Source: Liolophura sinensis (taxonomy: Eukaryota; Mollusca; Polyplacophora; Chitonida; Chitonidae). From it: a stretch of DNA of 64,000 nt. Below the pieces are notes generated by a model. It was not told the DNA's origin and did no database searches. It saw only the letters and a program-made list of their open reading frames with translations. Position numbers and translations under genes: made by a program. The stretch's first letter is position 1, and each line of letters starts with the position of its first letter. Positions 1 through 61,700 of this stretch are shown piece after piece. Where the stretch lies: positions 4,389,703 to 4,453,702 of the forward strand of contig NC_088301.1 in assembly GCF_032854445.1 (NCBI RefSeq). The letters are read 5' to 3'.

Positions 1-1194
1 AAGGAACTTTCATGACATGTCCAGTACCCAGACAAAACCTACCTTCTGAAGAAACAACCTTAACATGTTCAGTATCCAGGCACAACATACCTTCTGAAGG
101 AACATCCATGACATGCTCAGTACCCAGACACGGCCTACCTTCTGGAGGAACATACGTTACATGTTCAGTATCCAGACACAACATACCTTCTGAAGGAACA
201 TCCATGACATGCTCAGTACCCAGACACAACATACTTTCTGAAGGAACAGCCTTAACATGTTCAGTATCCAGACACAACATACCTTCTAAAGAAACATCCA
301 TGACACGTTCAGTACCCAGACACAACATACCTTCTGAAGGAACATCCATGACGTGTTCAGTACCCAGGCAAAACATACCTTCTGAAGGAACAGTCGTCAT
401 ATGTTCAGTACCCAGACACAAGATACCTTCTGAGGGAACAGTCGTCACATGTTCAGTACCCAGACTCAACATACCTTCTGAAGGAACAGTTGTCACATGT
501 TCAATACCTAGACACAACGTGCCTTCTGGAGGGACATCCGTGACATGTTCAGTAACCAAACACAACATATTTTCTGAAGGAAAATCCGTGACATGTTCAG
601 TGCCCAGACATCACCTACCTTCTGGAGGAACATCCGTGACATGTTCAATACCCAGACATCACCTACCTTCTGGAGGAACATTCATGACATGTTCAGTGCC
701 CAGACACAACGTACCTTCTAGAGGAACATCCGTGACATGTTAAATACCCAGACATCACCTACCTTCTGGAGGAACATCCGTGACATGTTCAATACCCAGA
801 CATCACCTACCTTCTGGAGGAACATTCATGACATGCTCAGTGCCCAGACACAACGTACCTTCTGGAGGAACATTCATGACATGTTAAATACCCAGATATC
901 ACCTACCTCCTGGAGGAACATCCGTGACATGTTCAATACCCAGACATCACCTACCTTCTAGAGGAACATCCGTGACATGTTCAGTGCCCAGACACAACGT
1001 ACCTTCTGGAGGAACATCTATGACATGTTAAATACCCAGACATCACCTACCTTCTGGAGGAACATCCGTGACATGTTCAATACCCAGACAGCACCTACCT
1101 TCTGGAGGAACTTCCGTGACACGTTCAATACCCAGACTGCACCTACCTTCTGGAGGAACATCCGTGACATGTTCAATACCCATGGAGCGTTACC
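1..1194 (-). repeat. 48-bp minisatellite copied from lipase exon 2 donor
   Basis: About 24 head-to-tail units of 48 bp. Read on the minus strand, each unit carries the last 13 or so codons of lipase exon 2 (VLNMSRMFLQK), then a donor-like AAG|GTAGGT, GTATGT or GTACGT and a few intronic bases. The last unit on the right is the authentic exon end at 1147. The period is a multiple of three and stops are rare, so open frames appear on both strands; these are not independent genes. The array runs off the left edge of the window. Confidence 0.9.
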
Positions 1195-2014
1195 ACGACT
1201 CACGTAGCCATGGATGAGAAACTTGATATCTTTTTCCGCGTCAAAGTCTGCGGTGGTGACCGTGTCCGGATCGTTCTCGTTAAGAACCTTTCCGGTTTCC
1301 GGGTCGTTCCGGGTGTACAGTTTAAAGTTGACGTTAACACTTTCCGGAGATTGCGGCAAATATTTCCAGGCGTTGTCAAATGGAGAAGATGTGTCAAAGC
1401 AGCCTAAATTGTCATAGCACACGTTGTTTTTCCCTGAGAACAGAGCTGTCGAAAAAGTCACATAAAAAGTAAAAAACAACTGCAGTTTATTTGAATCTTT
1501 ATGAAACTTGAAAAATTACATGACTCGAGGGCAATTTCAAATCGAACACAGAAGAATGGCCATGTGCTTTTGCTTGTTCCGCGTATGATCCGTATTGATG
1601 CATTCTTTAAACTGCCGTATGAATCCTCATTAGATGTTTAGAATTCTCAAACCTTTTTTATAATAGGGTTAGTCTTAAATGTGGAATATGATGTTGCAGT
1701 TTATTTTCATTTTCAGTGAAGGTTTCTATGCCCTGAGGGTTCTCTTGTTATGTTTACTTCTCTTAATCATGACTCTGCCTCTTAGAGCTTTTGACGTGTT
1801 GTAAGGTTGCAAGGTGTGGCTATGTAAGCTTCAGCGTGTTTGCGTTTTACTCAAGACCTGAACATGAACTTTTGCGACCAAAACTTAGAAACCTGAGTAC
1901 ACTAGTATGAAAAACAAATATATAAACATGTCCGTTATGTTATTTACACTTACCATAAATTAATCCTACATTCAGAAAAGTGGCAGTGAAATACACTGCT
2001 GTGGAGAGCGCCAT
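1147..2014 (-). CDS. pancreatic-lipase-family secreted lipase, 5' two exons (partial)
   Basis: Exon 1 is 1954-2014 and encodes a hydrophobic signal peptide (MALSTAVYFTATFLNVGLIY); it ends in G|GTAAGT. Exon 2 is 1147-1445, preceded by CGACAG. Across the phase-1 junction the reading continues into a mature N-terminus with VCYDNLGCF, LPQSPESVNVNFKLYT and FLIHGYVSRGNAPW. These match the start of pancreatic lipases and lipase-related proteins (VCYDRLGCF..., FIIHGF...NWL). The family hydrolyses triglyceride or phospholipid esters outside the cell, for example in the gut. The catalytic Ser-Asp-His residues would lie in exons left of the window. Start choice rests on the signal peptide. An upstream GT at 1205 (TAC|GTGAGT) could be an alternative donor, but homology continues past it to MFLQK, so I end exon 2 at 1147. 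Family certain; specific lipase type not resolvable. Confidence 0.85.
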
Positions 2015-58700: not shown

Positions 58701-61700
58701 AATCCATTTCAACTGGATTGGTTAAATCCATTTCAACTGGATTGTTTAAATCCATTTCAACTGGATTGTTTAAATCCATTTCAACTGGATTGTTTAAATC
58801 CATTTCAACTGGATTGTTTAAATGTATTCAGTTGGTAGATTACCCTAATTCTTCAACTTTTCATCCAGCTCTGTGACCAATATTTTGAAACATCCTGAGA
58901 AAACTAACAGGTGTCAAGAAATAATTTGCACAGTTTTAGGACGTTTGCATCTTTAGTGAAACAAAGAAATCATTTCTGGCATCATTATCATTGTAATTGT
59001 ATGCATGAATTCAATGAGGAAAGGTGCTGTAAAGGTTGAAATGGTGGGATGATTCACAGTAAGTATACAATAGATCAGAAATGTCACAAAGGAAGAGAAT
59101 ATTTGTCATAGATTTGTATGAAAATGGAAGAGACACTACATTAGCTGCTTGTTAACACATGGTCACCTGACCTCACATTGTAATTTGAGAGGATGTCTAT
59201 TTTTTCTCTTCATTTTTCATTTTATCCAAGAAAATGTTAACCATCTCCAGTTTTAGAATACCTGTGTTACAGAGTGACACCTAGAGGACCTGTGTGACAG
59301 ATTGACACTCAGAGGACCTGTGTGACAGAGTGACACCCAGAGGACATGTGTGACAGAGTGACACCCAGAGGACATGTGTGACAGAGTGACACCTAGAGGA
59401 CCTGTGTTACAGAGTGACACCTAGAGGACCTGTGTGACAGGGTGACACCCAGAGGACCTGTGTGACAGAGTGACACCCAGAGGACCTGTGTGACAGAGTG
59501 ACACATAGAGGACCTGTGTGACAGAGTGACACCCAGAGGACCTGTGTGACAGTGACACCCAGAGGGCATGTGTGACATAGTGACACCTAGAGGACCTGTG
59601 TGACAGAGTGACACCCAGAGGCCATGTGTGACAGTGTGACACCCAGAAGACATGTGTGACAGTGTGACAGAGTGACACTTACTCATCCAGGTTAATATCT
59701 AACATGTTATGAGGATCACTGGTGTCCTTCACATCCTCATCACCGTCAGATGCATTAGCTCCCTGAAAACACAACAGCAGCATTCTCACATGCATCAAAA
59801 TGTCTCATTCACCAAGTGTATGAGTACTGCTACAACTGATATGGATACAGTAAATAAGGTATAAAATATAAACTGGGGTCGAAGGTATGTTAAGCGTTAA
59901 GACAGGATTACATCTTAAGTCTTGCCCTAATTTGAAACTAATAGCACTTTAACTAAAAATAATAAAGCTAATTTTAATGCTAATACATTTTGAAGAACTA
60001 GGCCCTGTCTTTTCATATGCTGCCCAGAACTGATAACTTCTGGGTATGCCCTTATTTGATGTCAGCCTGGTTTATCTGGTAATATTGTTTTGTATATGCA
60101 TTTGTGTATCACTAAGCTTAGAGAAAGCTCTACAGCTCTCTAAGGGATCTGTACTAACAGCTGCCTTGTCATTTTGTGACTACTTATACAGACAGTGATG
60201 CACAGGCTCTCCTGTTAACTGGGCAGATGCTCTGGATGCTGATCAGTTTTAATTTTAATACGCTGAGAGATTATCTGTTTCCTTAAGATAACAAGCAACT
60301 ATACTGTATAGAAATCTACCCACATGTCTATAATTCCATGCATTTACCATACCTCAGGCATGTCCATGGCAGTGCTGACAGCTAGCACATGTGGGGTTTC
60401 ATCTTCTTCCTCGTCCTCAGATTCCACCACACCTTTTTTACCGCGTCGTTTTTTCTTCTTAGATCGCTTAGATTTCTTACCAGATGACAAGAGGTTGGAG
60501 TTGGACAGTTTCAAATACATATCTGAGGAGGAAAGACCTGAAATAGTTAAGAACTTCTACTAAGTTCTTGGCTATAGTTTCCCAGTGTGAAATGGAACCC
60601 CTTCACAAAAGAAAGACTTGTAGCCCACCTCAGTTAAGAAAACAAAAAATGCTTATGTTGTAATTGGAAATATCTTATTATTTATTTATTTGATTGGTGT
60701 CTTATGCTGTACTTAACAAACATTCACTTAACATTTCACTCACGACGGGGGCCAGAAATATGGCCAGAGGAAACCGAGCAGAGCTTGGGGGAAACCCATG
60801 ACCATCGCCTGGTTGCCACTCGTTCCAAAGTACGTTCTTCCCAGAGAAGAAGCTGGATAAGAACTCACAGCGATCACATTAGTGAGAGGCTCGTACGCTA
60901 ATGTGACGTGTTAGTGTGCTAACCACAAAGCCAAGGAGCCACCTCCCCACCCCCACACCTCCGTTCAACAAGAAATACTGATCTCAGCAACTCAACAGAC
61001 CATCCAACATGGTGAGACAAGCGTGACATGGCTAATGCAAATTTCAAGTATTGTTTCTTCAGACAGTGGTCTACTTGTACATGTATCTCGTACCCCTACA
61101 GCAATCTGTGAGCCCTATCACACAGCAGATAGCCTTATGGCTGGATGTTCTCATAGTTTCTATTATCTTGCTGTCCCTCACTTACCTGGCACATGGAGTG
61201 GTACACTCAGGTCTATGTTAGACACCGGTATGTTTTCATAGTTTGTGTTATCAGGGCTCTGGAAAGCAGGAAAATCAGCTCAACATAGTAACACAGTATA
61301 TGATTAAGACATTGCTTTAATGGCATGGACAAATCTTTTTCCATAGATTGCACTTTTTACACCTTTTCTTCTGAATTTTACTTCTCCTCAAAAAAAAAAT
61401 TTCTAAAAACTTTGTTTATATGAAAGAGCAACTTTGAGAGCAATTTTATGCATGTTTTCAATTTTGGTGACTGTTCCGTTTGGATTGGCAAAGTTCAAGG
61501 CTTCACAAAAAGTACAATTTTATCAGTCTACAGAATTGGCTTGAATAAACACATTGCAAACATGTGAAAAGGCTGACGAATTACAGTATTACTGCACAAT
61601 TTCTAGCAAGGGATCCCCAAATTATTAACAGAGATGAGCCGTACTTAGAAGTTTTGTCATTGTGGTCAACAGGAATCTGTCTGGCAATGAGTCAACAATA

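Follow-up and report, generated by a model that had tools for sequence, protein, structure and literature searches.

Do minisatellites arise by preference at splice junctions, and can an existing junction multiply into a row of decoy splice sites? Both questions are raised by a 64,000-nucleotide stretch of the genome of the chiton Liolophura sinensis (assembly GCF_032854445.1, contig NC_088301.1, positions 4,389,703 to 4,453,702; hereafter the window), which carries a lipase gene, LARS2 and AP3D1. A preliminary description of the window had placed seven minisatellites at or near splice junctions of these genes and proposed that junctions seed such arrays. Here, we compared arrays called by Tandem Repeats Finder (TRF) with gene models from the window and from loci outside it. 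Eight of 25 arrays within the gene regions span a splice junction, against 2.26 expected from random seeding. Rows of this kind have been named "mirages" in amphioxus (PMC3087553, PMC3902484), and we use the same word for them. The assembly paper gave the species as L. japonica, which a correction changed to Liolophura sinensis (PMC11068029).

Eight arrays copy an exon-intron junction

The tested set consists of eight gene regions with 216 junctions and 25 genic TRF arrays, and 130 junctions were examined outside the window. Arrays were kept at a TRF score of at least 60, a period of at least 12 and at least two copies, and gene models were built from reading frame and GT/AG signals. In eight arrays the repeat unit holds 9 to 84 nt of exon together with intron, and the full exon stands with one junction at the edge of the row. 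Five of these mirages lie at donors (lipase, the LARS2 exon ending at 31843, IFT172, and the myosin regions myoA and myoD) and three at acceptors (LARS2 exon 4, AP3D1 in the right flank of the window, L003, and the myosin region myoC). The seven that span a junction by their TRF ends overlap the exon by 9, 15, 15, 29, 34, 36 and 84 nt, showing no fixed register.

Three of the eight lie in the window (Table 1). The lipase exon 2 donor sits inside a row whose unit is made of about 36 nt of exon end and 12 nt of intron, with GT retained in 22 of 25 decoys. The donor at 31843 in LARS2 likewise lies inside its array; here the unit joins an exon end of about 15 nt to 44 nt of intron with GTAAGT, and GT is intact in 10 of 18 decoys. 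At LARS2 exon 4, the TRF array ends 51 bp ahead of the acceptor, and an extra, degenerate copy holds the real junction; in the unit, a diverged copy of the acceptor is followed by about 20 nt of exon, and all 14 decoys retain AG. Alignment of the units to their junctions makes each of these a clear junction copy, and the preliminary description had likewise seen such copies in three arrays. The lipase is identified by a Pfam Lipase match above cut-off and a Protein Data Bank (PDB) match that names pancreatic lipase-related protein, and LARS2 by Pfam tRNA-synt_1 above cut-off and a PDB match that names LeuRS. In the LARS2 model, the joined exons read open for the first 8 and for the last 12, and the four between them (29325-31235) were placed by eye.

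TRF and the gene models place all seven arrays of the preliminary description at the junctions named there, the seventh being 28 bp from an AP3D1 acceptor. Three others of the seven touch or approach a junction. The 32-bp unit near the LARS2 exon 3 acceptor contains ACTAAG, which we take to be a branch-point-like motif; the acceptor AG is not copied, and the unit is not a junction copy. The 28-bp array at the AP3D1 donor stands 13 bp from it according to TRF, and a degenerate copy reaches the junction, with no clear junction copy in the unit. Lastly, the 19-bp array takes up 391 of the 423 bp (92%) of LARS2 intron 37516-37938. Its consensus, TTTACAG/GTGTGA, is acceptor-like and donor-like together, and GT is retained in 14 of 18 copies; it is not a clear junction copy either.

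Outside the window, L003 continues AP3D1 and contains an acceptor mirage with 47-bp units, in which AG is retained in 23 of 26 decoys. Another AP3D1 acceptor in L003 is duplicated together with its exon start, giving three copies; this duplication has no TRF call and stands outside the 25 arrays. IFT172 (locus L014, on C7, the contig to which the window belongs) has a donor mirage with a 118-bp unit (GT in 10 of 11 decoys). The myosin regions carry a donor mirage in myoA (31-bp unit, GT in 5 of 5 decoys), an acceptor mirage in myoC (32-bp unit, 43-50 copies, AG in 46 of 49 decoys) and a donor mirage in myoD (121-bp unit, 9 copies, GT in 8 of 8 decoys); the fourth region, myoB, has no mirage. 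In total, 6 of the 130 outside junctions have been duplicated or multiplied into a row: AP3D1 has two of them, and IFT172, myoA, myoC and myoD have one each. The four myosin regions were picked from a list of protein matches, blind to repeats, and IFT172 was picked because of its row. The IFT172 locus amounts to at least one mirage among 20 spaced 10-kb loci on C7 (L004 to L023), the exon-by-exon annotation covering this one of the 20. The multiplication of existing junctions into rows of decoys, as proposed for the window, is thus seen at donors and acceptors, in unrelated genes and also beyond the window.

Junctions appear to be struck more often than random seeding predicts

Because a coverage test is confounded by array expansion, we used a seed-based null. 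Each array was collapsed to one unit, and a seed of unit length was placed anywhere not wholly within an exon. A seed or array was taken to span a junction if it covered at least 6 nt on each side of it. For the main count we listed the spanning arrays manually, LARS2 exon 4 being included in this way, and a stricter recount used TRF ends only. An array within an AP3D1 coding exon (20075-20120) and low-complexity units were excluded beforehand, and the split myoC row was merged into one array. The arrays on the lipase side of the left flank (L002, 281-3633), which sit past the last recognised exon, were left out, as were the PDZ gene in L021 and other spaced loci without exon annotation. A pattern with fixed spacing, which gave one match, was set aside.

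Across all regions, 8 of 25 arrays span a junction (2.26 expected, P = 0.0008), or 7 of 25 by TRF ends only (P = 0.004). Outside the window the count is 5 of 12 against 1.24 expected (P = 0.003), which is the same by TRF ends. Removing the IFT172 mirage array leaves 4 of 11 (1.02 expected, P = 0.010), and the four myosin regions by themselves give 3 of 8 (0.83 expected, P = 0.033). When arrays that come within 5 bp of a junction are counted along with those that span one, the total is 10 of 25 (3.65 expected, P = 0.0014), and the remaining 15 touch no junction. By this wider measure the window has 5 of 13 (1.78 expected, P = 0.023; 4 of 13 by TRF ends, P = 0.089) and the myosin regions 3 of 8 (1.26 expected, P = 0.11). 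Junctions therefore appear to be struck about 3.5 times more often than under random seeding, a modest excess drawn from few arrays.

Several results weigh against a bias toward junctions. The window itself has only 3 spanning arrays among its 13 genic ones (1.02 expected, P = 0.073), and 2 of 13 by TRF ends (P = 0.27). Outside the window without the IFT172 array, the count of arrays spanning or within 5 bp is 4 of 11 against 1.60 expected (P = 0.057). We also searched for copies of 24-mers on the same strand within 3 kb, requiring at least 18 of 24 matches, at 200 curated junctions in seven regions (the addition of myoD brings the junctions to 216). At least one extra copy was found for 14 of the 200 junction 24-mers and at least two for 9, compared with 2 of 200 for reversed queries. 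By the same measure, 20.6% of 12243 intron positions are repeated (3.3% of 1250 in exon interiors), and copies are thus rarer for 24-mers at junctions than for those in introns. Donor-like motifs in the 34 arrays of the 20 spaced loci number 4, with 2.6 expected (P = 0.25). Furthermore, the null was drawn up after some of the mirages were known, and its assumption of uniform seeds over collapsed introns is possibly wrong.

Taken by itself, the window is just suggestive, and the outside loci carry the case. The excess of spanning arrays is significant for the eight regions together and for those outside the window, and not for the window alone. The preliminary description had also held that random placement should rarely bring an array onto a junction. 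The null does not support this wording: at unit lengths of 16-121 bp and with some 20 introns per 20 kb, random seeding alone would bring roughly 9% of arrays onto one. From this random rate, the coverage test and the lack of significant motif enrichment, splice sites look like a favoured place for minisatellites in this genome and not like their general origin. The claim that junctions seed minisatellites is supported as a preference of roughly 3.5-fold in a small sample, with an excess also in loci beyond the preliminary description.

Decoy retention and the splice sites used

In the eight mirages together, GT or AG is retained in 138 of 156 decoys. This fits drift inside an intron, and weak selection in either direction is also compatible with it. 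Clear loss of the dinucleotide is seen at one of the eight, LARS2 31843, where 39% of decoys have lost the T of GT, compared with a mean divergence of 3.5% elsewhere. The loss could stem from a single variant lineage or from decoys being selected against, and it speaks against simple drift of all decoys with their units.

Proteins joined at the exon-proximal copy align gap-free at the mirage junction for IFT172 (with equal spans), LARS2 31843 and lipase. The AP-3 delta alignment spans two junctions, neither of which is a mirage. At these three of the eight mirage junctions, protein continuity points to use of the exon-proximal site. Gene predictors may misplace an exon end by choosing another copy. 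The chiton, in which about 1 in 20 junctions of a small sample bears a decoy row, offers a natural test of how the spliceosome chooses among identical sites.

Comparison with amphioxus mirages and other tandem duplications

The multiplication of junctions is not a new idea. In amphioxus, mirages have been reported in Adh3, the globins BflGb6 and BflGb9, PGBD5 and troponin C as minisatellite-like tandem duplications of exon-intron boundaries (PMC3087553, PMC3902484). According to these reports, they occur at either intron end with units of 10 to 160 bp, AG/GT is kept in many repeats, and splicing is normal despite the decoys. The chiton rows are alike in that units span the boundary (8 of 25 arrays), both donors and acceptors are involved, and AG/GT is mostly kept (138/156). 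They differ in coming from another phylum, in forming rows of up to 43-50 copies and in being counted against a null. A further mark of the amphioxus type is a copy number that is unstable between haplotypes or tissues; the chiton rows are known here from one haploid assembly. Each chiton unit matches the junction of its own gene, so the likeness to amphioxus is one of the kind of event and not of a sequence family. By this analogy, the chiton rows are best regarded as amphioxus-type mirages in another phylum, at notable density. In the literature searched, which was open-licence and mostly titles and abstracts, we found no mirages outside amphioxus, and the mollusc case extends them.

In the Rogers model, cited in PMC3087553, introns are gained by tandem duplication of AGGT segments. 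It shares tandem duplication and the involvement of AG/GT with the rows described here. Unlike these rows, in which existing junctions multiply, it has a coding segment duplicated to give a new intron, and LARS2 intron 37516-37938 is the only case that could fit it. Intron 3 of a TSSK1-like gene in abalone has an ordinary intronic minisatellite with a 27-bp unit in many copies (PMC6905558). It resembles the chiton arrays as a many-copy intronic row and differs in that the published description mentions no junction copy. With its chromosome-scale assembly and RNA data, the chiton would allow tests of whether tandem duplication leads to intron gain and to the sliding of exon ends.

Origin of the rows

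We consider it likely that the mirages come from ordinary tandem duplication straddling a junction and are tolerated through use of the exon-proximal site. A founding tandem duplication would straddle the exon-intron junction, and the row would, as we infer, then be lengthened into the intron by slippage or unequal exchange. The gene would keep working because splicing uses the exon-proximal site, a choice that exon definition would favour by pairing the sites that make the exon as short as possible. The decoys would then be intronic and drift together with the other bases of their unit. Selection presumably removes arrays confined to exons, so that rows straddling a junction would represent the extreme of what a gene tolerates.

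Such duplications need not favour junctions at all. In a minisatellite-rich genome, arrays could hit junctions at the random rate, with the excess due to small-sample luck and the choice of window, and we hold this possible though rather unlikely. It agrees with the P values of the window alone, with the 2.26 arrays that random seeding predicts anyway, with the 34 spaced-loci arrays lacking significant donor enrichment and with junctions being repeated less often than intron positions. Yet 4 of 11 arrays still span a junction outside the window once the IFT172 array is removed, and the myosin regions, which were chosen by protein matches, hold a mirage in three of four cases. The approximately 3.5-fold excess, at donors and acceptors, would instead be explained if junctions were hotspots at which tandem duplications arise by mutation, with AG/GT microhomology, co-transcriptional R-loops and nucleosome edges at exons as examples of a cause. 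This reading is tentative and somewhat doubtful, as the register of the unit relative to AG/GT varies and a site-specific break would give a fixed one. We think it unlikely, and put it forward as speculation, that splice junctions are true hotspots for array founding in minisatellite-rich genomes, with about 1 in 20 junctions bearing mostly intact decoys, and that the rows supply sites for exon-end shifts and intron birth, the array-filled LARS2 intron being caught at a late stage.

The remaining explanations concern the rows themselves. Some introns could have been born from rows by AGGT-bearing tandem duplication, and not rows from introns. The LARS2 intron that is 92% array, with units both acceptor-like and donor-like, would suit this; we find it improbable as an account of the mirages, in all eight of which the unit reproduces an exon end that was already present. 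Selection for spare splice or binding sites that tune splicing could explain why so many decoy dinucleotides are retained. It is very unlikely, since divergence over the whole unit is low (mean 2-11%) and no extra constraint is needed, and since LARS2 31843 shows dinucleotide loss. Errors of assembly come to mind for rows of which several exceed 1 kb, but the genome was assembled from HiFi reads according to its paper (PMC11068029), the copies differ among themselves and the loci are independent, which makes this source scarcely credible.

Other arrays and features

The positions of the window arrays and of the genes they lie in are listed in Table 1.

Table 1. Arrays and gene features of the window, in window coordinates; all arrays are as called by TRF
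Feature	Position	Strand	Remarks
Donor mirage, lipase exon 2	2..1182	-	48-bp unit, 24.6 copies; row extends into left flank (L002)
Lipase exon 2	1147..1445	-	last base 1147 is the donor, backed by protein continuity
LARS2 (mitochondrial leucyl-tRNA synthetase)	22940..43310	+	24 exons in count model
32-bp array near LARS2 exon 3 acceptor (24264)	23847..24259	+	stops 4 bp before acceptor
Acceptor mirage, LARS2 exon 4 (start 25470)	24827..25418	+	42-bp unit, 14 decoys
Donor mirage, LARS2 exon ending 31843	31829..32976	+	59-bp unit, 19.5 copies
Intronic 26-bp array, LARS2	34200..34463	+	283 bp from junction; scored as miss
Intronic 33-bp array, LARS2 region	36815..37360	+	63 bp before next acceptor; scored as miss
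19-bp array after LARS2 KMSKS exon (donor 37515)	37518..37908	+	begins 2 bp into intron
Intronic 23/46-bp array, LARS2 region	40883..42098	+	217 bp before next acceptor; scored as miss
70-bp array	51475..52045	-	222 bp from AP3D1 acceptor; scored as miss
70-bp array near AP3D1 acceptor 55247	55276..55695	-	28 bp away; no junction copy; scored as miss
24-bp array	58689..58823	-	161 bp from AP3D1 acceptor; scored as miss
28-bp array at AP3D1 donor (exon end 59683)	59260..59669	-	not scored as spanning

The AP3D1 piece in the window, which is encoded on the reverse strand, scores 29.6 bits for Adaptin_N, below the Pfam cut-off of 37, and the L003 piece lies above it (39.1); the window piece also matches AP-3 delta chains among PDB sequences (E = 1.2e-56). 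At the AP3D1 exon end 51128, the junction 24-mer is copied at least twice with no TRF array, and we did not call it a mirage. LARS2 intron 37516-37938 is a candidate case of intron birth from a minisatellite. In IFT172 (L025, L014 and L024 joined, 26144-26896), an intronic 27-bp array begins 100 bp past a donor; its unit contains GTGAGT and does not copy that junction.

The best PDB match of the muscle myosin fragment is 3i5f, which we take to be a squid structure. Adjacent matches at C1:26642195-26642299 and C1:26643291-26643386 cover near-identical positions of the myosin profile (118-152 and 121-152) and are possibly alternative exons. Some myosin matches, for example those at C8:10565775 and C3:10779719, lie in open frames of 1870 and 1339 aa; the other myosins are split by introns, and such matches may be intron-poor copies.

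In the 20 spaced loci on C7, set at even intervals and 200 kb in total, the 34 TRF arrays of period at least 12 make up 7.9% of the sequence. The genome paper lists 14.04% as unclassified and 0.08% as "other (simple repeat, microsatellite, RNA)" (PMC11068029), and minisatellites, at about 8% of the spaced sequence, have no class of their own in that listing.

Elsewhere in the window, a 122-bp array at 9165-10804 has 12.6 copies at 97%. By eye, its unit and that of the array at 51475..52045 are each similar to an element elsewhere in the window that resembles a short interspersed nuclear element. CT and TA microsatellites adjoin at 5785-5971. A short cysteine-rich open frame at 17187-17372 (+) resembles what we take to be molluscan metallothionein.

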